A DNA stretch of 64,000 nt from Clostridiaceae bacterium (GTDB lineage Bacteria; Bacillota; Clostridia; Peptostreptococcales; Natronincolaceae): positions 1 through 64,000 of the forward strand of contig JAFIFG010000111.1 in the NCBI GenBank assembly GCA_020832135.1, in the 5' to 3' direction. The stretch's first letter is position 1. Every line of letters begins with the position of its first letter. A program made the translations under genes and the position numbers. Positions 41,740-54,665 of this stretch are shown one piece after another. Below the pieces are notes generated by a model that worked only from the letters and a program-made list of their open reading frames with translations, was not told the origin of the DNA and ran no database searches.

Positions 41740-41780
41740 ATAAAGGATAGGTGATTGATATCAATCACCTATCCTTTATT
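41740..41780. terminator. Bidirectional terminator, perfect palindrome
   Basis: TAAAGGATAGGTGATTG and its exact complement meet at GATATC. T-rich ends occur on both strands. It serves the plus-strand small gene and the minus-strand rfbD. Confidence 0.88.
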
Positions 41781-42587
41781 AAGATAATCCCACAGTGCTT
41801 CTTTCCATGGTCTTAACTTTATATGGGAGTTATTATTTAAAGTTGAATTTTTAGGTCTTATGGCTTTTCTTTCTATTTCTTCCGAAAGAACCGGTATTAT
41901 TTTAGCATGAATATTTTTCATTTTTAAAGTTTCCTGTGCCATTTCATACCAAGTAGCACCGCCTGTATTTACTAAGTGATAATTACCATAACTATCCTCT
42001 TCAATTAATTTAGTGATGGCCTCTGCTAAATCCCCTGTATAGGTAGGTGAGCATTTTTCATCATGAACCGCCTTTATTAGACTACTGTGATTACTTAAAC
42101 TTAGAATAGACTTAATAAAATTTTTTCCTTTGCTTCCAAATAAGCATGATGTTCTAATTATAAAGTATTTATCTGTATTTTGTTTTACCTCTATCTCTCC
42201 TTTGTACTTTGACCTACCATAAATATTTAAAGGATTGGGATTATCTTTTTCATCATACCCTTTAGAGGATATACCATCAAAAACATAGTCACTACTAATG
42301 TAAACGAGCTTGGCACCTATCTCCTCAGAGATTTTTGCTACATTCGAGGTTCCCAAGGTGTTTACAGAAAAAGCAACCTCTTTGTTAACCTCACATTGAT
42401 CCACATCAGTAAATCCAGCACAATGAATAATAATATCTGGATTTATACTTGTTAAATTTGTATGCAACATATCTAAATCAGTTATGTCTACATCATGTTT
42501 ACCTAAAGATATTGGTTTTTTACACAAGAATACTTTATTTAATTCGTACCCTAATTGTCCAGTACCTCCTAAAATACATATCTTCAC
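41769..42587 (-). CDS. rfbD: dTDP-4-dehydrorhamnose reductase
   Basis: 272 residues of the SDR superfamily. The Rossmann motif GGTGQLGYEL lies at 7-16, with the active-site pattern YGRSKYKGE and the substrate loop NTGGATWYEMA. It makes dTDP-rhamnose from the 4-keto sugar. No rfbA, B or C genes are near. A glycosyltransferase gene lies directly upstream, so it may be part of a small polysaccharide operon. Confidence 0.9.
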   Translation of the reverse strand: MKICILGGTGQLGYELNKVFLCKKPISLGKHDVDITDLDMLHTNLTSINPDIIIHCAGFTDVDQCEVNKEVAFSVNTLGTSNVAKISEEIGAKLVYISSDYVFDGISSKGYDEKDNPNPLNIYGRSKYKGEIEVKQNTDKYFIIRTSCLFGSKGKNFIKSILSLSNHSSLIKAVHDEKCSPTYTGDLAEAITKLIEEDSYGNYHLVNTGGATWYEMAQETLKMKNIHAKIIPVLSEEIERKAIRPKNSTLNNNSHIKLRPWKEALWDYLNKG

Positions 42588-42612: not shown

Positions 42613-43611
42613 TTAAATTTTAAGTATAACTTTATAACTGTTGATTATATCTTGTGCGATTTTTTCCCACAGAAAGTTATTTAAAATATATTCTTTAAAA
42701 CCTTGTTTTTGCTTTGTAGTAATAGCTCCTATGAGTTTTTCTTCAATATCTTTTAAGTTAAAAGGTTTGACATACTGTACATAGTTTTTAAAATATTCTT
42801 TTCCACTACCTTCTTCAGTAGTTATTACATTACATCCAGCCAATCCCGCTTCTAGATTCACTAATCCAGGAATTTCATACCAACTAACAAGTGCATGTGC
42901 TCTAGCAGCGGTATAGGCCGAAGCTAAATCGTGGTGCTTCATTTGAGGAATATAGACTATATCCTTATTAGCTCTTACACACTGGGTATAATAATTATAA
43001 TCATTAATTGTACCGATTAGAACCAATGGTACTCCTAATTTTTTTGTAATTTTAGCAAGTGCCAATTGGTTTTTATGAGGACAAATCCTAGCTACCGATA
43101 AAACAAAATTATCTATATTATATTTATTGTAGAAGGTTTTTCTATCACTCTGAAGAAAAGCTCTATCAACTCCATTACGTATAATTCTATAAGGTTTACT
43201 AATGGTTAAATCCTTCTGAATTTCTTCCATTTCTATTTGAGCACTGGGCAAAATTATATCTGCACCTTCAAAAACTTCTTTTCTTAAACTATTCCATTTT
43301 TTCCATTGAGCTTTTTTAATAGAATGCTTGATATCATTAGGGAAGTATTTTGCATAGTTCCAATATATAGGTGTTAATACAATTTTTTTTCTATACTTTA
43401 AAGCATTTAAATAAAATTTATAGGTATCTGTAATTCTAATGGTATTAAATAAGTGAATTAAATCATAGCCCTCTAATACTTTATTTGCATCACTTGATAT
43501 GTCTACCTTTACCCCTAGTTTTTTCAAGTGTTCTTGTGTCTTTATAAACTGAATACTATCTCCTGCCATGTTCTGCTTGTAATCTTCTCTTATATACATT
43601 AATACCTTCAT
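42613..43611 (-). CDS. GT4-type glycosyltransferase
   Basis: 332 residues with a GT-B fold. GDSIQFIKTQEHLKKLGVKV, a middle linker, and VARICPHKNQLALAKI followed by IPGLVNLEAGLAGCNVITTEEGS (an E-x7-E type motif: E-A-G... with only one clear glutamate) suggest a family 1/4 glycosyltransferase. The acceptor is not known. It lies 25 bases before rfbD. The 223-base gap to the next, plus-strand, gene carries that gene's promoter and nothing else clear. Confidence 0.8.
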   Translation of the reverse strand: MKVLMYIREDYKQNMAGDSIQFIKTQEHLKKLGVKVDISSDANKVLEGYDLIHLFNTIRITDTYKFYLNALKYRKKIVLTPIYWNYAKYFPNDIKHSIKKAQWKKWNSLRKEVFEGADIILPSAQIEMEEIQKDLTISKPYRIIRNGVDRAFLQSDRKTFYNKYNIDNFVLSVARICPHKNQLALAKITKKLGVPLVLIGTINDYNYYTQCVRANKDIVYIPQMKHHDLASAYTAARAHALVSWYEIPGLVNLEAGLAGCNVITTEEGSGKEYFKNYVQYVKPFNLKDIEEKLIGAITTKQKQGFKEYILNNFLWEKIAQDIINSYKVILKI

Positions 43612-43834: not shown

Positions 43835-44674
43835 ATGAATAATAAATTTGTAAAGAAGTTAGTTATACCTGTAATGACTACAGCCTTATTAATTACAAGT
43901 ATATCAACTGCTAGTGCCTATACTGTATATAGAGATTCTGCTAATAGAAGGTTTGTATATAATAAAAACATTACTACAAACACTACCTTCAATAATGCCT
44001 TTAGATTCAACTCAAGAATAATTATTAGAAATAGCGACGGTACCCCTGTAAATTTAAATTCAATTCTAAACAACAATCAAGCACAAGAGCCAATCCAAGA
44101 AACTCCTGAACAACCGGTTCAAGAGGCACCCCAAGAACAAGAAATAACTCCTCAACAACCAGTTCAAGAGATACCACAGGAAGTAACTCCAGTGGAAACT
44201 CCTGAGGTAAATGTGCCATCTCAAGAACCAACTACACCACAAGCACCTCAAGAAGTGGAAAATGTAAACTTAGCTCCTGGAAACACATCTAATGCTAGAC
44301 ATGCTTTAACTCAGGCAGAAATTCAAATGGTCGAATATGTAAACGAAGCTAGGGCTCAAGCAGGTCTTCAACCTTTAGCTATAGATGTAGATTTATCTTA
44401 TGTAGCAAGAATTAAATCACAAGATATGCAAAACAACAACTATTTCTCTCATACATCACCAACTTATGGATCACCTTTTGACATGATGAGAAATTTCGGA
44501 ATTCAATATAGAGCAGCGGCTGAAAACATTGCTATTAACTCAAATGTAAGGGCAGCACATAATGCTTTAATGAATTCTGAAGGTCATAGAAGAAATATCT
44601 TAAATCCTAATTTCACTCATATTGGAATCGGAATTCAAAACAGACATTATACACAAATGTTTATTCAAAAGTAA
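43835..44674 (+). CDS. Secreted CAP-domain (SCP/YkwD-like) protein
   Basis: 279 residues. Residues 1-28 are a signal peptide. Residues about 85-155 are a linker rich in Pro and Gln (PQ repeats, e.g. APQEQEITPQQPVQEIPQEV). The C-terminal CAP domain (about 160-279) shows VEYVNEARAQAGLQPL, FSHTSPTYGSPFDMM, AENIA and SEGHRRNILNPNFTHIGIG. CAP proteins are often secreted, with unclear roles; some act in sporulation, such as SafA-linked YkwD. AAAGGAG precedes the ATG by eight bases. It lies next to a group of probable spore-surface genes. Confidence 0.92.
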   Translation: MNNKFVKKLVIPVMTTALLITSISTASAYTVYRDSANRRFVYNKNITTNTTFNNAFRFNSRIIIRNSDGTPVNLNSILNNNQAQEPIQETPEQPVQEAPQEQEITPQQPVQEIPQEVTPVETPEVNVPSQEPTTPQAPQEVENVNLAPGNTSNARHALTQAEIQMVEYVNEARAQAGLQPLAIDVDLSYVARIKSQDMQNNNYFSHTSPTYGSPFDMMRNFGIQYRAAAENIAINSNVRAAHNALMNSEGHRRNILNPNFTHIGIGIQNRHYTQMFIQK

Positions 44675-44720: not shown

Positions 44721-45371
44721 TTAAAATATACTTGGACTTGATTCATCATAATCATCTAGTTGCTCTGGGAAAAACTCAGGAAAGTCCTCCTCATCAAAAT
44801 CATCACACACATCAGGTGGTAAAAACTCTTCACATGGTGGTGGCTCTGGACAGAATCCAAATTCAGGTATTAATAGTTGCACTCTGCCTACTACCTTAAT
44901 AATCATAAATACTCCTGCTGCGAAAACTAAAGATCCACAACTTTCGTAAGGTTTCGTTAATTTTTTGGATGCCGTTTCCAGTACAATTTCAAAGGTAAAC
45001 TCATCCCTTGCCTCAGGTATATATAAAACTATGTCTTTTGAAATATCAGGTAATCTTCCCGGTACATTAATAATAGCTCCTGTTTTCGTATTTCTTACCC
45101 TTGCGTTAAATGTAACTCGAACTCTAAATTTCACACGACTGAAGTTCGGTTTATCAGGTAATGGAGTAATAATTAGTGTTCCTTCAATGATTTCTCCTGG
45201 GTTAAAGATGATGTCTACAAACTCAAAGGGTCCTCCTTCAGGCAACCTCACTTGAATTTCTTCAAAACACTCCCGTTGTTGACAATGAGCATATACCTTA
45301 TCCGCTATAATACACACCTGGTCAAATTCTGGAAAATATGGGTCCACATTATTTTTTTCAAAATTTTCCAT
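44721..45371 (-). CDS. Probable spore-surface protein with KVY-x2-C motif, copy A
   Basis: 216 residues, no signal peptide. The N-terminal motif CIIADKVYAHCQQREC is followed by a beta-rich domain (EFVDIIFNPGEIIEGTLIITPLPDKPNFSRVKF), which vaguely recalls SPOCS/DUF3794, and a hydrophobic segment near 150-170. The tail is acidic (CDDFDEEDFPEFFPEQLDD). Proteins with KVYDxC-QxxC in Clostridia are usually sporulation-linked and of unknown detail. A sigma-K-like promoter lies at 45417-45443. It is a close paralog of the next gene (copy B), so a tandem duplication is likely. Function is inferred only from promoter and motif. Confidence 0.65.
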   Translation of the reverse strand: MENFEKNNVDPYFPEFDQVCIIADKVYAHCQQRECFEEIQVRLPEGGPFEFVDIIFNPGEIIEGTLIITPLPDKPNFSRVKFRVRVTFNARVRNTKTGAIINVPGRLPDISKDIVLYIPEARDEFTFEIVLETASKKLTKPYESCGSLVFAAGVFMIIKVVGRVQLLIPEFGFCPEPPPCEEFLPPDVCDDFDEEDFPEFFPEQLDDYDESSPSIF

Positions 45372-45416
45372 ATTATATCCCCCTTTCTAAAAATCTAATG
45401 ATTTTCTATACAATAT

Positions 45417-45443
45417 CAGTATATGTATTTGTGAAAATTGTGT
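45417..45443 (-). promoter_or_regulatory. Candidate sigma-K promoter of copy A
   Basis: On the minus strand AC, 16 bases, CATATACTG: one base off the CATA-NNN-TA consensus. It lies 46-73 bases before the start. Confidence 0.6.
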
Positions 45444-45450
45444 TACAAAT

Positions 45451-45476
45451 AAAAACCACCGAATTCGGTGGTTTTT
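45451..45476 (-). terminator. Terminator after copy B
   Basis: AAAAACCACCGAATT and its complement form a perfect palindrome with T-runs on both strands, just after the copy B stop. Confidence 0.88.
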
Positions 45477-45487
45477 ATTAATTTTAT

Positions 45488-46120
45488 TTACTTTCTAAAA
45501 TAATCCTTATCATCCAGTTGCTCTGGGAAAAACTCAGGAAAGTCCTCTTCTTCAAATCCATCACACACAGGTGGTATTATAAACTCTTCACATGGTGGTG
45601 GATCCGGACAGAACCCAAATTCAGGTATTTGCAACTGTACTCTACCTACTACTTTAATAATTAAAAATACTCCTGCTGCAAAAATCAAGCATCCTTTCTC
45701 CTGTATCGGCTCATTCAGTTTTCGAGAAGCTGTTTCAACAACAATTTCAAAAGAAAACTCATCTCTAGCTTTTGGTATATACATGATGATGTCCTTATGA
45801 ATTTCTGGAAGTTTGCCCGGAATCTTTATTACTGTGCCTGTCTTTGTATTTTTTACTCTTACTATAAATGTAACCACGACTTTAAACCGTACTCTACTAA
45901 AATTAGGATTGTTTTCTACAGGTGTAATCACTAAACTGTTCCTTATAATTCTACCTGGATTAAATTTAATGTCAAGGAACTCCATCTCTGTACACTTAGG
46001 TAATTCTATCTGTACTTCTTTAAAGCATTCTCTCTGTTGGCAATGGGCATATACTTTATCTGCTATTATACATACCGGTTGAAATTCTGGAAAATATGGA
46101 TCTGTAGCATTATTAGGCAT
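45488..46120 (-). CDS. Probable spore-surface protein with KVY-x2-C motif, copy B
   Basis: 210 residues. It shares with copy A the motif CIIADKVYAHCQQREC, the DPYFPEF start, EFLDIKFNPGRII, the segment VFLIIKVVGRVQLQIPEFGFC and the acidic tail. The two are close paralogs in tandem. Conservation is strongest around the cysteine motif and the hydrophobic/EFGFCP end, suggesting these are functional. The gene is divergent from a beta-propeller gene that begins about 130 bases away. A sigma-K-like sequence lies upstream at 46187-46213. Function beyond likely spore-surface is not known. Confidence 0.65.
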   Translation of the reverse strand: MPNNATDPYFPEFQPVCIIADKVYAHCQQRECFKEVQIELPKCTEMEFLDIKFNPGRIIRNSLVITPVENNPNFSRVRFKVVVTFIVRVKNTKTGTVIKIPGKLPEIHKDIIMYIPKARDEFSFEIVVETASRKLNEPIQEKGCLIFAAGVFLIIKVVGRVQLQIPEFGFCPDPPPCEEFIIPPVCDGFEEEDFPEFFPEQLDDKDYFRK

Positions 46121-46186
46121 AAATATCCTCCCTCATGATTTTATAGTTAATATCAATAAATCTATTAATAAATCTATTGGTAGTAA

Positions 46187-46213
46187 CATAATATGAATTA
46201 AGTGATTATTTGT
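46187..46213 (-). promoter_or_regulatory. Candidate sigma-K promoter of copy B
   Basis: On the minus strand AC, 16 bases, CATATTATG: one base off consensus, with the same spacing as the copy A site. It lies in the 131-base divergent region. Whether the propeller gene uses a sigma-K promoter too is not clear. Confidence 0.55.
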
Positions 46214-46251
46214 GATATTGCATATTAAAATTTTAAAAGGAGGTGAACTAT

Positions 46252-47832
46252 ATGCAATTAATGTACTCTCCCCATTGCCTTGTTCGAAATAAAGAAGGTG
46301 AAGTTTATTATTTCTATCTAAATCAACATAAGGAAGTTTGTTATGATATTTATAAAGAGGACATCTTATTAAAAAAACAAATTTTAATTAGTGAAATGAT
46401 AATAGACTTCTCTGCCGCTATTACAGTTAAAGATGAATTGCATCTAATTTGTATTACTCAATCGGGCAAATTAATGTATTATTTTGGTTCAGATCAAGGG
46501 TGGAATAATAAACTGATTTCAAATGTAGATATTAGATCAAATATATATAGCTATTTAATGTTATTTATTAAGGAAAATCACACACATATTTTTTGTATGA
46601 AAACAAATTTGCTTAATTCCACAGTTTCTTCCATAGAACATATATACTGGAATGAAAAACAGGTATATAAATCTACCCTCACCAGTTACATGCCCGGCAA
46701 ATATCCAAGCCCTTATCAGGTTCAGATTGATAGTGTAGGCAATATACATATCGTTTATAAAGCGCTTTATAAAACAAATCATCAATTATACTATAATAAA
46801 TTCAATATTTCTAGTAAAAAATGGCTGCCTGCAGAGATTATCAGTGATTTAGTAGAAAATCATTCACACCCACATATACTAATTGATAAGAAAGACAATT
46901 TGCACTTAGTTTGGTGTACTATAGAAAAAAATAATTTTATTCTTAAGTATAAAAGAAAATCAAATATAACCAATCAAAGAAACAAATGGAGCAATCCACA
47001 AACCTTATCTAGTGAGAATGCCAATTATCTTTCTCCTATACTAATACAAGAAGGCACCTCCATAAAGGTATTATGTCGCCAAAATAATCATATTGCTGAA
47101 ATAGTCTCAGAAGAATATGGACATCGTTGGATACTATGTGATGAAAAAAAATTATATAAAGTTGGAGATCCTTTGCTTATAAGATATACAACGAATTATG
47201 AAAACGATAAAATACTGTACAATATAAATCATGCTTATGGAAAGATAGATAATAGTAATAAAGGTATTGAATTATTTGGTGTTAGACTCCTACAGCTTAA
47301 TAAAAATCAAAACTTAGAGTTGAGAAATACCAATGTAGAGAAGAAATCATCACAAGTCTCCAATCATGCTATAGATGAAGTTAATATATCCCCTAAAGAA
47401 AATGATACAGAAGCAGGTTCTGATGATAATAATGAAGATTATAAATCTACAAGGAATATTGATTCTCAAGAGTTATTAGAAGAAATACAGAATCATATTA
47501 ATACTCTCATATTAGAGCTTAAAAAATTAAACCAATTTAAAAATCTATTGCAAAAAAAACCCCTTAACAGTTCACAACTCAAAGAAGAAGATTGCTCTGA
47601 ACTAAAGGAGCTTTATAATAACTTTAAAAATATGGAAAGTAACATCTCAAATATTGAAGAAGAAAAAGTTGTGTTACAAGAAGAATTTAATGAAATTCAA
47701 TCCAAATTCACAACCCTAGATAACCGTATTACCCTATATAAAGAGGAATTTTTAATATTGCAACAACAAGTAGATACATTTACTAATAATAACCTGAACT
47801 TTATAGAACGCATTAAAGGTTTGTTTAAGTAA
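46252..47832 (+). CDS. Beta-propeller protein with C-terminal coiled coil (module 1)
   Basis: 526 residues, no signal peptide. The first 340 residues are repeats of a beta-blade type: LVRNKEGEVYYFYLN, ELHLICITQSGKLMYYF, NIHIVYKAL-YKTNHQLYY, NLHLVWCTIEKNNFILKY and SEEYGHRWILC, which resembles an Asp-box. The fold is probably a sialidase-like propeller, without recognisable sialidase catalytic residues. The last 180 residues are charged linker then coiled coil (LLEEIQNHINTLILELKKLN; EEKVVLQEEFNEIQSKFTTL). The ATG at 46252 follows AAGGAGGTG by six bases; the GTG at 46243 is inside that site. It is divergent from copy B. A spore-surface role is inferred from context. Confidence 0.75.
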   Translation: MQLMYSPHCLVRNKEGEVYYFYLNQHKEVCYDIYKEDILLKKQILISEMIIDFSAAITVKDELHLICITQSGKLMYYFGSDQGWNNKLISNVDIRSNIYSYLMLFIKENHTHIFCMKTNLLNSTVSSIEHIYWNEKQVYKSTLTSYMPGKYPSPYQVQIDSVGNIHIVYKALYKTNHQLYYNKFNISSKKWLPAEIISDLVENHSHPHILIDKKDNLHLVWCTIEKNNFILKYKRKSNITNQRNKWSNPQTLSSENANYLSPILIQEGTSIKVLCRQNNHIAEIVSEEYGHRWILCDEKKLYKVGDPLLIRYTTNYENDKILYNINHAYGKIDNSNKGIELFGVRLLQLNKNQNLELRNTNVEKKSSQVSNHAIDEVNISPKENDTEAGSDDNNEDYKSTRNIDSQELLEEIQNHINTLILELKKLNQFKNLLQKKPLNSSQLKEEDCSELKELYNNFKNMESNISNIEEEKVVLQEEFNEIQSKFTTLDNRITLYKEEFLILQQQVDTFTNNNLNFIERIKGLFK

Positions 47833-48115
47833 ATTTTAATTCCTTTAGAACTCTCTTTTTATCTACCTTTTCAGCTTCATAAATACTGGCAATTTTTTTG
47901 TTAATATCTCCAACTTCTTTTAACAAAATATCATAATCCTCTAGTGTTAGAAATCTAATAGAATAGCTACACCCTGCTCTTATTCTGCATGGTGTTGATA
48001 TTAACTGAAACTGCTGGTATTTCTTTTGTTTAAGATATTGATAGACTTGGACTGCATGGTTTTTTGAATCAAATACAGCAATATAATATTTGTCACTTAA
48101 GTGTACTTGTCTCAT
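47825..48115 (-). CDS. DUF3343-type (putative Se/S carrier) protein
   Basis: 96 residues. It has YYIAVFDSKNHAVQVYQYL-type N-terminus and STPCRIRAGCSYSIRF, the C-x5-C region of DUF3343 proteins, which are thought to carry selenium or sulfur because of the Cys pair and gene neighbours in other genomes. No selenium gene is here. It is convergent with the propeller gene and overlaps its end by eight bases. No intergenic terminator separates the two. Confidence 0.78.
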   Translation of the reverse strand: MRQVHLSDKYYIAVFDSKNHAVQVYQYLKQKKYQQFQLISTPCRIRAGCSYSIRFLTLEDYDILLKEVGDINKKIASIYEAEKVDKKRVLKELKFT

Positions 48116-48217
48116 ATTCTTTTCCTCCTATTAAGGATTTTTTATATAATAATATATGATTTTTTATCTTATATGTTACTAATTACTATTATGATATTTA
48201 TTCTTATAGGAGACTTA

Positions 48218-48255
48218 TAAAAAAACTCATGGTTTTACTCCCCATGAGTTTTTTT
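48218..48255. terminator. Bidirectional terminator overlapping the rarA stop
   Basis: AAAAAAACTCATGG pairs with CCATGAGTTTTTTT around about 8 bases; T-runs occur on both strands. Confidence 0.88.
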
Positions 48256-49569
48256 GCGTGAGCATATATATTTTTTGATTGTATTTTCATATCCATTTGT
48301 AGTAGGTTGATAATAGCATGTGTTTCCAAGTTCATCCGGCATATATTGTTGTTTAACATAATTTCTTTCATAATCATGGGGATATAAGTAATTAACACCA
48401 TGTCCTAGGCTTTTTGCACCATCATAATGAGCATCCTTTAGATGATTAGGTATACTGGTTTGAAGGTTTGCTACGTCCTTTATGGCTGCATCAATTGCTA
48501 TATAGGCAGCATTACTTTTTGGTGCGGTAGCTAAATATGTTGTTGCTTGTGCAAGTATAATTCTACCCTCTGGCATTCCTATGGTGCGTAATGCCTCATG
48601 GGCCGCTACTGCAACCTGTAGTGCATTTGGATCGGCATTACCGATATCCTCAGAGGCTGAAATGATTAAACGTCTAGCAACAAACTCTATATCTTCTCCC
48701 GCATAAATCATTTTAGCTAAATAATGTAATGCAGCATCTGGATTGCTACCCCTAATAGATTTAATGAATGCTGAAATCACATCATAATGTTGGTCTCCAT
48801 TTTTGTCATAGTTAACAGTTCTTTTTTGAATAGATTCTTCTGCTGTTTCTAGGTCAACTACTATGTCCCCGTGACAATTTATCGGTGTACTTAACACTGC
48901 TATTTCCAGAGCATTTAATGCTCTTCTGGCATCTCCATTGGCGGTTTCGGCTATGTGCTTAAGTGCTTCATCTGTTACCTTGATCGACAATTTCCCTAAA
49001 CCACGTTTATCATTTTTCATAGCAGTTCGTAAAATATATATAACCTCTTTTAATTCTAATAACTCTAATTTTAATACTGTTGTTCGTGATAAAAGCGAGT
49101 TATTTACCTGAAAATATGGATTTTCTGTTGTAGCACCGATCAATGTAACCAATCCGTTTTCTACATGAGGTAGCAAAGCATCCTGTTGACTTTTAGAAAA
49201 ACGGTGTATTTCATCAATAAAAAGAATAGACTTTTTCTGATACATTCCTAAGAGATCATTTGCCTTATCTACAACTCCCCTTATCTCTTTTACTCCTGAG
49301 GTCACAGCATTTAATTGAAAGAACTCAGCATTAACTTCATTCGCTATTACTTTTGCAATAGTAGTTTTACCAGTTCCTGGTGGCCCATATAAAATAATGG
49401 ATGGAATTCTTTGAGATTTTATACACCTGTATAAAAATCTCTTCTCTTCTAATATGTGTTGTTGTCCTACAATGTCATCTAAAGACTTAGGTCTCATTCT
49501 ATCAGCTAATGGAGCTGAATCTACTAATGTATTTTCTTTTGCTAAATCAAATAAATTCATATGTCTCAT
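48235..49569 (-). CDS. rarA: Replication-associated recombination protein A (RarA/MgsA)
   Basis: 444 residues. AAA+ ATPase with Walker A GPPGTGKTTIAKVIA at about 60, Walker B FIDEIHRFSKSQQDALL, sensor TTENPYFQVNNSLLSR, and a C-terminal tetramerisation region (GMPEGRIILAQATTYLATAPKSN). It acts at stalled replication forks. One base separates it from the threonine aldolase gene upstream. Confidence 0.95.
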   Translation of the reverse strand: MRHMNLFDLAKENTLVDSAPLADRMRPKSLDDIVGQQHILEEKRFLYRCIKSQRIPSIILYGPPGTGKTTIAKVIANEVNAEFFQLNAVTSGVKEIRGVVDKANDLLGMYQKKSILFIDEIHRFSKSQQDALLPHVENGLVTLIGATTENPYFQVNNSLLSRTTVLKLELLELKEVIYILRTAMKNDKRGLGKLSIKVTDEALKHIAETANGDARRALNALEIAVLSTPINCHGDIVVDLETAEESIQKRTVNYDKNGDQHYDVISAFIKSIRGSNPDAALHYLAKMIYAGEDIEFVARRLIISASEDIGNADPNALQVAVAAHEALRTIGMPEGRIILAQATTYLATAPKSNAAYIAIDAAIKDVANLQTSIPNHLKDAHYDGAKSLGHGVNYLYPHDYERNYVKQQYMPDELGNTCYYQPTTNGYENTIKKYICSRKKTHGE

Positions 49570-49570
49570 C

Positions 49571-50602
49571 CTATTCTACTATATCTTTTATTAAGCTTAT
49601 AACTGCTAAAACGTCTCCTTTATTTACATCTTTATGAGTAACAAATCTGATTACATGCTGATTACGAGGATTTACCAGTAAGCCCTTTTCTTTAAATTTA
49701 TCCATCAATTCAGATGTATTAAATCTTGTTCCTGCAAAATTTACATTAATAATGTTAGTATGTATACTTTCCATGTCTACAGAAACACCAGCTATTTTAT
49801 TCAATCCTTCAGCCAGTATCCTAGCATTTTCATGATCTTCCTTTAATCTTGAGGTCATTTCTTCAAGGGAGTGTATTGCAGCAGATGCAATAATACCTAC
49901 CTGTCTCATACCTCCCCCTAGCATCTTTCTAAATTTCCTAGCCCTTCGAATAAAATCTTCTGTACCTATTAATACGCTACCTATAGGAGCACTTAATCCT
50001 TTAGAGAAACAAAACATCAGAGAGTCAGTATATTGGGCTATTTCCTTTACTTCCACATTTAAGTATGTTGCCGCATTAAAGATTCTAGCTCCATCTAAAT
50101 GTAGCGGAATATTTTTTTCTTTTGCCACCTCATATATCCTCTTCATATTATCTAATGGTATAACTGCACCACCCGACATATTATGACTATTTTCCAAACA
50201 AATTAATCCCGTTTCAGGAAAATGTATATCATCTTTTCTAATTGCAACTTTTACATCTTCAGGATTCATTATTCCATTAGTACTCTTTATAGTTCTTGCT
50301 TGTACTCCAGCCACTCTGGCTATCCCCCCCACTTCATATAAGTAAATATGACAGTTTTCTTCCAAAATCACTTCTTGTCCTGGGGTAGTATGGGTCATCA
50401 CAGCTAATAAATTCCCCATAGTTCCCGTGGGTACAAATAGTGCTGCTTCTTTCCCTAGCATTTCCGCAACCTGTGCTTCAAGCTTATTAACTGTTAGATC
50501 ATCGCCATATACATCATCACCTAAATCAGCCTCTACAATTTTTTTCATCATTTCTTCTGTAGGTAAAGTAACAGTATCACTTCTAAAGTCAAATACTTTC
50601 AT
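49571..50602 (-). CDS. ltaE: Low-specificity L-threonine aldolase
   Basis: 343 residues, PLP-dependent. The start VFDFRSDTVTLPTEEM is diagnostic, HLDGARIFNAA is the substrate part, and the PLP lysine lies in LMFCFSKGLSAPIGSVL. It splits threonine or allo-threonine to glycine and acetaldehyde, feeding glycine to serine and C1 metabolism (glyA is further along). Length is normal. Confidence 0.95.
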   Translation of the reverse strand: MKVFDFRSDTVTLPTEEMMKKIVEADLGDDVYGDDLTVNKLEAQVAEMLGKEAALFVPTGTMGNLLAVMTHTTPGQEVILEENCHIYLYEVGGIARVAGVQARTIKSTNGIMNPEDVKVAIRKDDIHFPETGLICLENSHNMSGGAVIPLDNMKRIYEVAKEKNIPLHLDGARIFNAATYLNVEVKEIAQYTDSLMFCFSKGLSAPIGSVLIGTEDFIRRARKFRKMLGGGMRQVGIIASAAIHSLEEMTSRLKEDHENARILAEGLNKIAGVSVDMESIHTNIINVNFAGTRFNTSELMDKFKEKGLLVNPRNQHVIRFVTHKDVNKGDVLAVISLIKDIVE

Positions 50603-50686
50603 GTTTTTTACTCCTCTCCATTGCTTTTATTTCATTATAAATGATTTAAGTATTTTTTTCCAATTATACTACGAAATTCAACCATA

Positions 50687-50721
50687 GAAAAAGTCTGATG
50701 TATTAAACATCAGACTTTTTT
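50687..50721 (-). terminator. Terminator after the copy C spore-surface gene
   Basis: AAAAAGTCTGATGT pairs with ACATCAGACTTTTTT around about five bases. Confidence 0.88.
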
Positions 50722-50732
50722 ATAGTTTAATT

Positions 50733-51710
50733 CTACTCTTCTTCTAGAGGCTCTACTTCCATCGTTTCGTAAGTTGTTCTTGGTCTTGGTTTTGGTTTAG
50801 GAGGACATGGATCTATAAATTGTTCTGTAATTTGTGGTGGGAACAATGGTGGGAATTCATCCACAATTGGTCTTATAGCTGGCTCTGGTTGACAGAACCC
50901 AGTACTTAATACACATAATTGTGCTGGAACTTTAATTTTCTTTTCACAGGTAACTGCTAATGCTATAAGCAGATTAGCTCTTACTTCGCCTGTTGCAGGG
51001 TTAAAAGTAATATCTCTCTGTAAGCTATGGGTAGCTAATCTAGCAACAAATGAAACATTACAAAACTCTGTAAATTGTGGTAAGAATGCGGAATCATGTA
51101 CCGATGGCATGCATAATTCAAAGAAATTAGATAGAGTTTGATTTACTGGGGCTCTACTTTTCAACGTAGCTACTCGTGTCACTCCTCGTGCATCTATATA
51201 CTCTACATCTACTGCTAGGAATACATTACCCGTAATTCGTATCTCCTGAGAACCAAAGATAGGAGTTCCTAGGCCTACTTCGTCACAATCAACAGTATCG
51301 GTGTAAATCAAGTACTGCAATAGTCCAGCAGGACCAGGTACAACAACTGGTTTCCCTCTTTCATCTAATACAAACTGTGCACCAGATAAGTGTGTTTTTG
51401 GTGTAATATCTAGGTTTCTAGGGTCATTAATATTGTTAGGATTGAAGAATTTTCTAGCGCGAATGTCTAATACTCTTGTAATTCTAGATTTTGGTCCGCA
51501 CCTTTCTGCAGGAAGGGTTCCAAGCGGTACATTGGAAGCAGGTTGTAACCCCTGTAGATTAAAAAGTACTGAATCATACACCTTATCAATAAATATACAC
51601 TCACCTACTACTTCATCAAGTCTGCCATTAAACACACAGCCTACATCTGCTATACAACAAGGCTCATCAAATTGTGTTGCTTCTACATTTGGATTAATCT
51701 TGTCTGTCAT
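50733..51710 (-). CDS. Probable spore-surface protein with KVY motif, copy C (larger)
   Basis: 325 residues. The N-terminus has CCIADVGCVF and ECIFIDKVYDSVLFNLQGL, which aligns with the KVY motif of copies A and B but lacks the following cysteines. A beta-rich body with several single cysteines (VDCDEVGLG; FELCMP; FCNVSFVARLATHSLQ; VTCEKKIKVPAQLCVLSTGFC) follows. The end is proline-rich and acidic. The KVYD form and the cysteines fit clostridial spore proteins. A perfect sigma-K-type site precedes it (51769-51796). It is divergent from the second propeller gene. Confidence 0.65.
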   Translation of the reverse strand: MTDKINPNVEATQFDEPCCIADVGCVFNGRLDEVVGECIFIDKVYDSVLFNLQGLQPASNVPLGTLPAERCGPKSRITRVLDIRARKFFNPNNINDPRNLDITPKTHLSGAQFVLDERGKPVVVPGPAGLLQYLIYTDTVDCDEVGLGTPIFGSQEIRITGNVFLAVDVEYIDARGVTRVATLKSRAPVNQTLSNFFELCMPSVHDSAFLPQFTEFCNVSFVARLATHSLQRDITFNPATGEVRANLLIALAVTCEKKIKVPAQLCVLSTGFCQPEPAIRPIVDEFPPLFPPQITEQFIDPCPPKPKPRPRTTYETMEVEPLEEE

Positions 51711-51768
51711 TATATTTCACTCCTTTTTATTATTAATAAAACTATTGAATTTCTTTACTTCTTACTTT

Positions 51769-51796
51769 TAACATATGATGTTGCTCCGTTATAGGT
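51769..51796 (-). promoter_or_regulatory. Sigma-K promoter of copy C, full consensus match
   Basis: On the minus strand AC, 17 bases, CATATGTTA, which matches AC-N16/17-CATA-NNN-TA fully. It lies 59-86 bases before the start codon. Confidence 0.7.
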
Positions 51797-51975
51797 GCTA
51801 CTTGCTTAATTAGTTTTTGCTGACAGTGCTGTTATTTAAGCCTTTTTATTTCTCTCTTACTGTAAAATATGATAGTTCAATATTTTAGGTGCTATTAATA
51901 TGTAATTTTTATTTTCTGTTAGCATATATTTTAATAAAATTAGTTTTAATTTTTAAATAATAAGGATGTGGTGTT

Positions 51976-53031
51976 ATGGGTTTAGTAAAGGGTTATGAAT
52001 TTATTATTAGGAACTCTAAGGGACAAATCTATAATTTTTACTTAAATGAGAAAAATCAAATTGAATATATTGTAACCAATGAAAATAATCAGTGGGCAAA
52101 AAAAAATATTGTGTTTAATGAAGCAATTTATAGTTACTCGGTAGAAATAGATCTTCTTGATAAAATTCATATAGTGGCCTACAGTAAAACAGAAAAAATA
52201 TACTATACTCTCTTAAAAAATAAAGAGTGGAATCATCACAAGTTACTTGATTACTCTAATAAGGGCTATCTAGTTTATTATCCAATTGTGAAACTTTTCA
52301 ATAATCAAGTTCATATTTTTTATTATTTACATTCAAAGAAAGAAAAAAGCAAATGTAGTCTTCATCACTTAACCATAAAGGATGACAAATGGGTGAATGT
52401 GCATATCCTAGATGTCACCTATGATAAACTGATAAATCCATTCAAAATTATTGATTATAAAAAACAGCTTTATGTTTTGTTTACTTCTCTTCATAACGAA
52501 TATAGCCAGATATTCTTAAGCAACTATGATGGTATATCTTCGCACTGGAATAAACCTATTAGATTAACAGACTCATCTATTGAGAAATTGTACCTAGATT
52601 GTTTATTAGAGGAGACTGGAGACCTGCATATTACATGGAGCTCCTATGATGAGACTGGATTAACAGTGCAACATATTAAGCATGCTTTAGGCTATAAAAC
52701 AGAAATTACTCAGCCATTATCTATTTCACACAAATCAAATTGTTCCTTTCCTGTAATATTACAATGCGGAGATATTTTATGGAGTGTATGGCTTCAAATG
52801 AATAAACTCTTCTCCTGTTATTCAATTGACTATGGTATTACTTGGTCAACTCCTGTACTATGTAAGGAAAGTCAAAATATTAATTTTAAACGATATAGAT
52901 TCAAAACCAACCATCCAAAAGATAAACAAGATATGGTATGTGATTATTTATATGGGACCTTATATCCAAAGATTCAATTTATAGGTTTTGGAGGTGATAT
53001 GAATGATGAAATATCAAAAAATAAGTCATAA
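51976..53031 (+). CDS. Beta-propeller protein (module 2)
   Basis: 351 residues, a paralog of the module 1 propeller (46252). The N-terminal FIIRNSKGQIYNFYLN aligns with LVRNKEGEVYYFYLN there. Blades include IHIVAYSKTEKIYYTLL, DLHITWSSYDETGLTVQH and YSIDYGITWSTPV, the last a good Asp-box (S-x-D-x-G-x-T-W). The coiled coil is not in this frame; it follows in a second gene that overlaps by 29 bases. ATG is at 51976 with a weak ribosome site (AAGGATGTGG). It is divergent from copy C. Confidence 0.75.
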   Translation: MGLVKGYEFIIRNSKGQIYNFYLNEKNQIEYIVTNENNQWAKKNIVFNEAIYSYSVEIDLLDKIHIVAYSKTEKIYYTLLKNKEWNHHKLLDYSNKGYLVYYPIVKLFNNQVHIFYYLHSKKEKSKCSLHHLTIKDDKWVNVHILDVTYDKLINPFKIIDYKKQLYVLFTSLHNEYSQIFLSNYDGISSHWNKPIRLTDSSIEKLYLDCLLEETGDLHITWSSYDETGLTVQHIKHALGYKTEITQPLSISHKSNCSFPVILQCGDILWSVWLQMNKLFSCYSIDYGITWSTPVLCKESQNINFKRYRFKTNHPKDKQDMVCDYLYGTLYPKIQFIGFGGDMNDEISKNKS

Positions 53032-53425
53032 TTTTATTCCTAAAGAAGAAACAAAAACAGCACCTAATATAGATACCTTAAAACAGAATAATGATTTTCT
53101 TATTAAGGAAAATGAAAAGTTATTATCTAGAGTAGAAGAATACAAAAAAATTATCGATGAGATAGAAGAACAGCTGAAGGATAAAGACCTTCAAACAAAA
53201 GCTTCAGAAGACAGAGCATTATCTTTAGAAGGCGACTTAAAAAAATATGAAAATTTAAGGGGGGATATAGATAAAGTAGATAATTTTAAGGGGGAGCTAG
53301 CTAGACTTAGCAGTCAAGTCCATACATTAACAGAAGAGAATAAAGAGTTGGCTAGTCAGTTAGAATCCTATAAAGATCATGTACAGAGCCTATATCTTAT
53401 TTTACTTATATTAGCTCTTCTTTAG
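53003..53425 (+). CDS. Coiled-coil protein coupled to module 2 propeller
   Basis: 140 residues. A long coiled coil (KENEKLLSRVEEYKKIIDE; NFKGELARLSSQVHTLTEEN) ends in a short hydrophobic patch (LYLILLILALL). In module 1 the comparable coil is fused to the propeller. Here the start (ATG 53003) overlaps the previous gene in another frame and has a strong ribosome site, GGAGGTGAT, just before it, so coupled translation by design is more likely than a broken gene. The coil may form oligomers with the propeller. Confidence 0.75.
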   Translation: MMKYQKISHNFIPKEETKTAPNIDTLKQNNDFLIKENEKLLSRVEEYKKIIDEIEEQLKDKDLQTKASEDRALSLEGDLKKYENLRGDIDKVDNFKGELARLSSQVHTLTEENKELASQLESYKDHVQSLYLILLILALL

Positions 53426-53478: not shown

Positions 53479-53508
53479 AATCCCCTTGTTTTACAAGGGG
53501 ATTTTTTA
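53479..53508. terminator. Bidirectional terminator
   Basis: AATCCCCTTG pairs with CAAGGGGATT around about 6 bases, with T-runs on both strands. It serves two convergent genes. Confidence 0.88.
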
Positions 53509-54591
53509 TGAGATAACTTTTCTATACCAAAAAATTTTTTTGAAAGCAGTATGCTCCATATACTTCCCTAAGTATTCTTTTATCTCTACAGGAAATTCTA
53601 ATGCGATGTTTGTGTTCTCTTCCTGCTTACTTATATATTTTATTAAATCACTGTATACCTCCTCCAATATCTCCTTATCATATATACTAATAGGTTCCAT
53701 CAAGATTACATATCGATAGAGCTTTTTATCATTTAAATCAATGAGCTCTTTTAAAATAAATACTGTTCTTTGGGGCTCATTATAAATAAACTTTTCTATC
53801 TTAATTATCTTCTTTTTCCCTATAGCTCTATCATATAGATAGGTCATGGGAAAAATACGGGCAGCTGATATGTACTGATTTAGTGTTTTAATATCTAAAT
53901 CCTCCATTTTAATATTTTGTATCTTATGTTCTTTTAATGAACTATCTTTTAATATGTTATTTTTGATCTTTACTTTCCCTTTATATACTTCAGATAATTC
54001 TAAAAAACCTAATTGTTTTAATTGTTCCTGAGACAAGTTACTACTATTAGAAGCAATGTCTAGATTGTAAACTCTTTTTTCTTTTAGAAGATTGTCTAAA
54101 AATCTTATTATGCCTGTTAGGACGTCTTTTTTATGATAGGATTTACTTAAGTTAAATACATAAATAAAACCATATACTCCATAGGGCATAGGTTCTTCAT
54201 GAAAATCTATCCCAATATAACCTACCACCTTATTTTCATCGGTAAGTAGGTAAAAGCTCTCCTTATTAAAATCCTGTTGCTCTTTAAAAGCATCTACCAC
54301 TTCACTTAATGTTTTAGATAAAGGATTTTTATAGGATACCAAAGAAGTTATTTTTACATTTTTATATGTTTTTTTATCGGGAGTTGTATCTATGGTTTTT
54401 AACTTATATAATAGATTTTGCAAACCATAAACAGCGGTTTTTTTAAGTGTATCTAGTTGGTATTTATAGTTTTCAGTTTCTTTAATTTTATATGCAATAT
54501 ACTCTTCTACAGTACTGTTTTCTTTTTTGCTCTGTTCTTTTAATTTAATATAAAGATCTTCACTTATCTCTATCTCTAACCTTCTTTTCAT
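53506..54591 (-). CDS. Ribbon-helix-helix-like start plus GNAT-type domain protein
   Basis: About 361 residues. Residues 1-40 (MKRRLEIEISEDLYIKLKEQ) resemble CopG/Arc-type ribbon-helix-helix domains. Around 120-230 is a GNAT-like domain (FYLLTDENKVVGYIGIDFHEE; VLTGIIRFLDNLLKEKRVYNLDIASNSSNLSQ; KQLGFLELSEVYKG). About 130 residues of unknown type follow. The ATG at 54591 has AAAGGAGG seven bases before it; the longer frame to 54618 has none. It may be a DNA-binding acetyltransferase, but the RHH part is weak evidence. It is not clearly linked to its neighbours. Confidence 0.6.
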   Translation of the reverse strand: MKRRLEIEISEDLYIKLKEQSKKENSTVEEYIAYKIKETENYKYQLDTLKKTAVYGLQNLLYKLKTIDTTPDKKTYKNVKITSLVSYKNPLSKTLSEVVDAFKEQQDFNKESFYLLTDENKVVGYIGIDFHEEPMPYGVYGFIYVFNLSKSYHKKDVLTGIIRFLDNLLKEKRVYNLDIASNSSNLSQEQLKQLGFLELSEVYKGKVKIKNNILKDSSLKEHKIQNIKMEDLDIKTLNQYISAARIFPMTYLYDRAIGKKKIIKIEKFIYNEPQRTVFILKELIDLNDKKLYRYVILMEPISIYDKEILEEVYSDLIKYISKQEENTNIALEFPVEIKEYLGKYMEHTAFKKIFWYRKVIS

Positions 54592-54665
54592 TTTCCTGCC
54601 TCCTTTCCTTATTAACATATTGAAACTAAATTTAATTTATAACTGTAAATAATACAAAAAATAAA

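Follow-up and report, generated by a model that had tools for sequence, protein, structure and literature searches.

A divergent gene pair for a CsxA-like protein and a predicted propeller-coil partner in Clostridia, with a candidate composite promoter between them

The window analysed here is a stretch of 64,000 nucleotides from a Clostridiaceae bacterium (contig JAFIFG010000111.1 of GenBank assembly GCA_020832135.1). In it, a gene for a small protein with a KVY motif, KVY-B, which has the related KVY-A beside it, faces a gene for a predicted beta-propeller with a coiled-coil tail, P1. A second unit of similar layout, in which a further KVY-motif gene (C) faces a propeller gene (P2) and a separate coil gene (CC), lies some kilobases away. 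Both arrangements had been pointed out in an earlier note made from the letters of the sequence, and both are indeed present, with KVY-B (45488–46120) opposite the open reading frame (ORF) at 46243–47832, and C (50733–51710) opposite 51976–53031 and 53003–53425. The features of the first unit are as follows.

44721–45371, minus: KVY-A, a stand-alone CsxA-like protein (216 amino acids, 7 cysteines) with profile kinship to Clostridium CsxA homologues
45418–45444, minus: sigma-K-type promoter motif of KVY-A (AC, spacer, CATANNNT), by pattern match
45488–46120, minus: KVY-B, a stand-alone CsxA-like protein (210 amino acids, 8 cysteines) that faces P1
46168–46214, both directions: candidate composite promoter, its elements read from the sequence as given in the next three lines
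46168–46170, towards P1: sigma-E-type -35 element ATA
46187–46195, both directions: shared palindromic -10 element CATAATATG
46214–46212, minus, towards KVY-B: sigma-K-type -35 element CAC
46252–47832 (ORF from GTG 46243), plus: P1, propeller with C-terminal coiled coil, from an AlphaFold model, fold matches and a conserved start

KVY-A and KVY-B are 70% identical across 203 residues. When profiles were compared, the KVY profile matched that of Clostridium CsxA homologues at 99.4% (E = 1.5e-21, 212 columns); these homologues were picked by csxA-type synteny, and the C. sporogenes CsxA sequence lay outside the comparison. CsxA is described, in passages of PMC4942563 and PMC7333573, as a cysteine-rich protein that forms the exosporium lattice of Clostridium sporogenes. 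A class-wide search with the KVY profile extended to proteins of 250–290 residues, two of which are found in locus L188 between a pheT-zapA-glycosyltransferase stretch and a collagen/BclA_C gene, with P1 divergent from one of these two KVY/CsxA-type genes. A glycosyltransferase gene and a divergent ORF are near A and B in the window and near csxA-type genes in L188. Because of the profile match and the L188 neighbourhood we describe A and B as CsxA-like; by profile, by domain architecture and by synteny they fall into one family with the Clostridium CsxA homologues, with which they share homology over most of their length and a link to sporulation. By analogy with CsxA, they may form a lattice.

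Other comparisons returned little for the KVY proteins. No Pfam or NCBIfam family passed its cut-off for A, B, C, P1 or P2. A search of solved structures with the KVY-B sequence gave a best E of 0.44, and one with the KVY profile gave no match. The AlphaFold model of KVY-B has a mean predicted local distance difference test score (pLDDT) of 85.0; it had no Foldseek match at E ≤ 0.001, and a second structural look reached a best Z of 4.4, which does not imply a novel fold. A kinship to SPOCS/SipL was considered as well and was not supported (hhalign probability 1.2%, from a comparison with only three SipL repeats of the window's genome).

P1 probably starts at ATG 46252 rather than at GTG 46243, because the M4 column is invariant among 13 homologues and GTG 46243 abuts GGAGG. 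In its AlphaFold model (mean pLDDT 83.9) a beta-propeller extends to roughly residue 345 and is followed by a linker of low confidence and by helices that fall within residues 406–528. In a second structural look, alongside a Foldseek search, the 18 best rows were all lectins of the PLL/PHL type (Z 23.4–24.9), which are known from Photorhabdus; the best Z of 24.9 goes with a root-mean-square deviation of 3.2 over 301 aligned residues. Identity to these lectins is only 9–14%, the likeness is one of predicted fold, and P1 has an extra coiled coil. P1 is therefore predicted to combine a lectin-like propeller of seven blades, as counted from strands and matches, with a coiled-coil tail. Judged by hydropathy, none of the six proteins (A, B, C, P1, P2 and CC) begins with an obvious hydrophobic segment. 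In C. sporogenes, an unnamed 'highly conserved ORF' is divergent from csxA (Figure 9 legend, PMC7333573, 2020), and P1 occupies the same divergent position in L188 and in the window. P1 is likely to be the counterpart of this ORF, although the two are matched by position, not sequence, and the relevant passages of that paper give the ORF no fold, function or promoter. The end of P1 is overlapped by 8 bp by a Se/S-carrier-like gene on the minus strand (47825–48115), and similar frames are beside P1 in L247 and L248.

To follow the pair, 60 related genomes were searched with KVY-B, P1, C and P2, which had matches in 24, 25, 31 and 28 of them, respectively. In 19 of the 24 relatives with a KVY match, P1 is the direct neighbour of KVY and divergent from it. 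A separation of the two genes, which the earlier note held to speak against a joint system, is thus confined to a minority. They are 13 and 15 kb apart in G010 and G012, and the sole P1 match in G008 is its P2 gene. The DNA that separates KVY from P1 in G010 (L247:1013–13305) and G012 (L248:2201–14898) is a 13–15 kb block of nucleotide-sugar/glycosyltransferase-like genes, as judged by eye, and both genomes have a further KVY-like protein upstream of P1.

The best 80 of 114 KVY loci were then taken as a named collection that includes Alkaliphilus, Anaerovirgula, Natronincola, Tissierella, Desulfosporosinus, Clostridium and others. A propeller gene is divergent within 1 kb of 47 of the 51 stand-alone KVY genes (median gap 90 bp), which is beyond chance. 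Two of the other four are at a contig edge and two have no propeller gene in the locus. Where KVY is part of a fusion protein, a propeller gene is near in 25/29 cases, mostly in other orientations. Thirteen proteins, from the window and its relatives, went into the first P1 profile, which already found the propeller neighbours of the KVY loci. Among 391 Clostridia genomes, the KVY, P1 and C profiles matched 231, 112 and 7, and KVY was present in 101/112 P1-positive genomes vs 130/279 P1-negative ones (P = 7e-17). As the genomes are related, this and all other association P values overstate independence. A class-wide count of adjacency (a KVY match in divergent orientation no more than 2 kb away for 79/86 P1 rows) came from hand-picked rows and is biased, and is not used as support. 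Clostridial KVY-propeller pairs were also seen on two contigs labelled as Flavobacteriales and as an Actinobacteria metagenome-assembled genome (L070 and L104), which are probably mis-binned.

Presence of these genes follows sporulation. The sporulation marker SpoIVA had matches in 32/60 relatives, and all carriers of KVY (24/24), P1 (25/25) and P2 (28/28) are SpoIVA-positive, as are 30/31 carriers of C. Seen from the other side, C is in 30/32 SpoIVA-positive and 1/28 SpoIVA-negative relatives, the lone negative (G036) being an 86% complete genome. P values for the association of KVY, P1, C and P2 with SpoIVA range from 4e-10 to 2e-13 in these non-independent relatives.

The upstream regions also point to the mother cell. 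In C. difficile, the -35 elements given in print are ATA for sigma-E and AC for sigma-K. Our sigma-K pattern ends CATANNNT, omitting the last A of the published CATANNNTA. A sigma-K-type motif was found upstream of 17/18 KVY genes in relatives (0.7 expected) and of 7/7 C genes, and a sigma-E-type motif upstream of 11/11 P1 genes (0.9 expected). Housekeeping genes gave 0/16 for both patterns; shuffles, a first-order simulation and a swapped assignment of the two motifs served as further controls.

Between KVY and P1 the two motifs appear to share one -10 box. The palindrome CATANTATG is present in 48/54 distinct intergenic regions (0.66 expected from the first-order simulation). In 45 of these 48, AC is found on the KVY side at 15–17 bases from the palindrome, and in 40 of them ATA is on the P1 side at exactly 16 bases. 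The swapped arrangement of the -35 elements occurs at the palindrome 0 and 0 times. The full composite motif, 47 bp in the window, is present in 38/54 regions and in none of 300 simulations. A looser motif test gave 48 and 47 of 54 pairs in the proposed sense and 8 and 2 in the swapped one. We also scanned 2.79 Mb of partly overlapping DNA, chosen around KVY and propeller genes, which holds 38 distinct composite copies. Thirty-six have a KVY/CsxA gene on one side and a propeller gene on the other; of the remaining two, one is beside a KVY gene with a propeller about 630 bp off, and one is elsewhere. The latter (L189:5419–5465) is the sole copy in the scanned DNA that has no KVY or propeller match near it.

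Of 20 pairs taken from the other families of the class, 18 retain the sigma-K-type motif on the KVY side. A shared -10 box, with a 17-base spacer, is present in 2/20 (L192 and L237), and by its motifs the composite promoter therefore belongs chiefly to the Alkaliphilus-Tissierella side. Promoters that work in both directions from a symmetric -10 element have been described in Escherichia coli (PMC12825309), and the likeness, here by motif, is in the single palindromic -10 box that serves both strands. The difference is that the KVY and P1 sides carry the -35 types of two successive sporulation sigma factors; the terms 'sigma factor' and 'sporulation' are absent from the main text of that paper. 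Our literature searches, limited to open-access papers, returned only general sporulation papers for divergent or overlapping sigma-E/sigma-K promoters.

We propose that P1 is made early and nucleates or tethers a CsxA-like lattice that is made late, a reading to which we give a probability of about 0.5. Sigma-E polymerase would read the shared -10 box towards P1, and sigma-K polymerase would later read it the opposite way, towards the lattice gene. On this two-sigma reading, P1 would therefore probably be made first, in the mother cell; the predicted order comes from the promoter motifs, and nucleation is inferred. P1 may oligomerise via its coil and sit at the forespore surface, where its propeller could contact the lattice protein made later, or glycans borne by that protein, and so recruit and orient it. 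The lattice of A and B would then close around the spore, not in the cytoplasm. A bolder form holds that the change of sigma factor flips transcription at one palindromic -10 box from a propeller-coil starter to a lattice subunit, that the order of assembly is written into 47 bp, and that the clostridial exosporium has its missing initiator in the propeller-coil protein; this we put forward tentatively and regard as somewhat doubtful.

Several results weigh against the proposal. Two KVY-positive relatives (G018 and G051) have no P1 match, and P1 is missing in 130/231 KVY-profile-positive Clostridia genomes; in many of the 231 the match is confined to the C-terminal part of the profile. A and B are shorter than CsxA and have fewer cysteines (7/216 and 8/210 against 25/299); the Clostridium CsxA homologues have 8 to 28. 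The stricter CATANNNTA matches just 2/18 KVY upstream regions, because the palindrome ends in TG. On the P1 side, just 5/20 pairs from other families have the sigma-E-type motif, and neither the sigma-E-type nor the sigma-K-type motif was found in the 5 P2 upstream regions (0/5). Finally, the table of selected proteins in the paper on the C. sporogenes exosporium names no such partner, though some uncharacterised proteins are among its entries.

The palindrome may be mere compact packing of two ordinary overlapping promoters, with polymerase competition irrelevant to timing, and we give this close to an even chance. E. coli has many symmetric -10 boxes, and in the five tested, according to the parts of PMC12825309 that deal with them, basal transcription was too low for polymerase competition. 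The pair can also do without the composite, because other families have it in so few cases. Packing fits less well with the strong asymmetric conservation in 38/54 pairs and with the lack of any swapped arrangement at the palindrome.

For P1 itself, the main rival to a part in lattice start is that it is a lectin of the finished spore, its propeller binding deoxy-sugar glycans and its coil fixing these, or a glycosylated nap, to the lattice. The uniform PLL/PHL sugar lectins among its best structural rows, the glycosyltransferase and RmlD-type genes that adjoin the pair, and the nucleotide-sugar-type genes (named by eye) between KVY and P1 in two relatives all favour it. However, the likeness to lectins is one of predicted fold at 9–14% identity, propellers of many functions have the same fold, and an early promoter would be odd for a late decoration; we consider this role unlikely. 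It is quite improbable that P1 is a mother-cell chaperone or inhibitor that blocks premature lattice assembly and does not stay on the spore. Its predicted earlier expression would suit such a role, as would the self-assembly of the lattice protein on expression in E. coli, reported in a passage of PMC7333573, but nothing is specific to it and a coil-borne propeller suits a scaffold equally. That the genes are a growth-phase surface system or chance neighbours with no spore connection is hardly credible given the SpoIVA association, mother-cell promoter motifs, conserved pairing and lack of an obvious N-terminal hydrophobic segment, and we found nothing in its favour beyond the missing Pfam families.

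The earlier note had proposed a surface structure, probably on the spore, and knew of no described system with this pairing. What stands is a conserved two-gene unit tied to the spore by SpoIVA tracking, the sigma-K-type motifs of KVY and C, and the CsxA-like domain. The supposed absence of a described system is not supported, as the literature already has CsxA, domains that resemble it and, without name or function in the passages concerned, a conserved ORF that diverges from csxA. The predicted fold of P1 and its pairing, the tracking of SpoIVA by KVY, P1, C and P2, and the composite promoter are new. Searches for a spore propeller in Clostridia, limited to open-access papers, returned one paper that looked unrelated, and for an exosporium propeller two papers with that word, PMC10399906 and PMC5434927; the 'propeller' in the part of PMC5434927 that uses the word is a lattice shape, not a fold. 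The pair bears on the placement of the exosporium lattice on clostridial spores; according to passages of the 2020 CsxA paper (PMC7333573), Clostridia have no ExsF homologue, and whether BclA is anchored directly to the CsxA layer is not known. P1 accompanies CsxA-like genes in many clostridial genera; its predicted fold and predicted earlier timing make it a concrete candidate for the adaptor that is missing, and in the composite promoter two sigma factors that succeed each other would use one -10 box in a compact arrangement.

The second unit comprises the following features.

50733–51710, minus: C, a protein with the KVY motif (325 amino acids, 12 cysteines), of unproven kinship to A and B, that faces P2
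51864–51890, minus: sigma-K-type promoter motif of C, similar in relatives, with a second match at 51770–51796
51976–53031, plus: P2, propeller paralogue of P1 without the coil, by comparison of the two sequences
53003–53425, plus: CC, short coiled-coil protein with a hydrophobic C-terminal tail that overlaps the P2 end and is probably the split-off P2 coil

The alignment of P1 and P2 starts at residues 4 and 1, respectively (BLASTP, 20% identity, 336 columns, E = 6e-19), and we conclude from it that they are paralogues from their first residues, as the earlier note had claimed. Its further claim of a module present twice, duplicated and diversified, holds for the propellers but is weak on the KVY side. 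A, B and C all have the KVY motif; C and B gave a BLASTP E of 0.005, and the profile of C matched that of KVY with a probability of 42% (E = 2.6e-4) over 40 C-terminal columns only. Against the Clostridium CsxA homologues the C profile scored 1.8%, and against a further KVY-like set 33% over 34 columns. Homology of C to A and B is thus not shown. P2 is divergent within 1 kb of C in 24/31 C-positive relatives. In G003 and G006 it is 46 and 38 kb from C, in G004 and G025 the only P2 match is their P1 gene, and G013, G036 and G039, though C-positive, have no P2 match. CC passed only coil-type Pfam cut-offs. L244 (family f41) has propeller and coil in a single reading frame as the partner of C, and P2 and CC therefore look like a split gene. 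Together, C, P2 and CC seem to repeat the plan of the first unit, in the family of the window and some related ones. The region upstream of P2 (51711–51975) is strongly conserved in the relatives shown, yet has no sigma-E or sigma-K pattern match. Beside the unit is a gene with weak GNAT acetyltransferase matches (53506–54618), which keeps this place in L021, L029, L030 and L031.

KVY domains are also found within proteins of about 800–1100 residues that carry DUF11 or DUF4183. The protein at L028:6616–9678 has 1020 residues, matches DUF4183 three times, carries KVY at residues 545–720 between DUF4183 domains, and is adjoined by a 141-residue DUF4183 protein. Pfam lists no DUF11 in it and lists DUF11 in a related L022 protein. 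L028 is probably the published F-Anchor-3 locus. A passage of a 2025 preprint (PMC11952670) describes F-Anchor-3 of Clostridium aceticum, which flanks an F-ENA subunit, as having one DUF4183, four DUF11, one 'CsxA-like' and two DUF4183 domains. By position in this architecture, the KVY domain corresponds to the published CsxA-like domain; A and B differ in being the bare domain, without DUF4183 or DUF11. The appendage proteins of C. taeniosporum have DUF11, like some KVY fusions, a likeness drawn from the passages of PMC5749712 that describe them and not from sequence. In L103:9056–10600, L086:8491–10062 and L115:9074–10624, KVY is fused behind a second kind of propeller with YNCE/lactonase-type Pfam matches (below the cut-off in L103). 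The hosts are C. tetanomorphum, Desulfocucumis and Desulfosporosinus, and a P1-type gene is nearby. A Desulfosporosinus reading frame of 3243 amino acids (L133:878–10609), with many DUF11 repeats (12 stretches in the scanned part) and KVY near its C-terminus, is perhaps a very long appendage or anchor protein.

Three neighbouring genes of the first unit were assigned.

41769–42587, minus: RmlD-type (dTDP-4-dehydrorhamnose reductase) family protein (Pfam RmlD_sub_bind, E = 5.7e-81)
42613–43611, minus: glycosyltransferase (Pfam Glycos_transf_1), with homologues in 38/80 named loci
43835–44674, plus: YkwD-family CAP protein (TIGR02909), with domain matches in 26/80 named loci

The window glycosyltransferase is 39–41% identical to neighbours of the CsxA-like genes in L188, L103 and L026.

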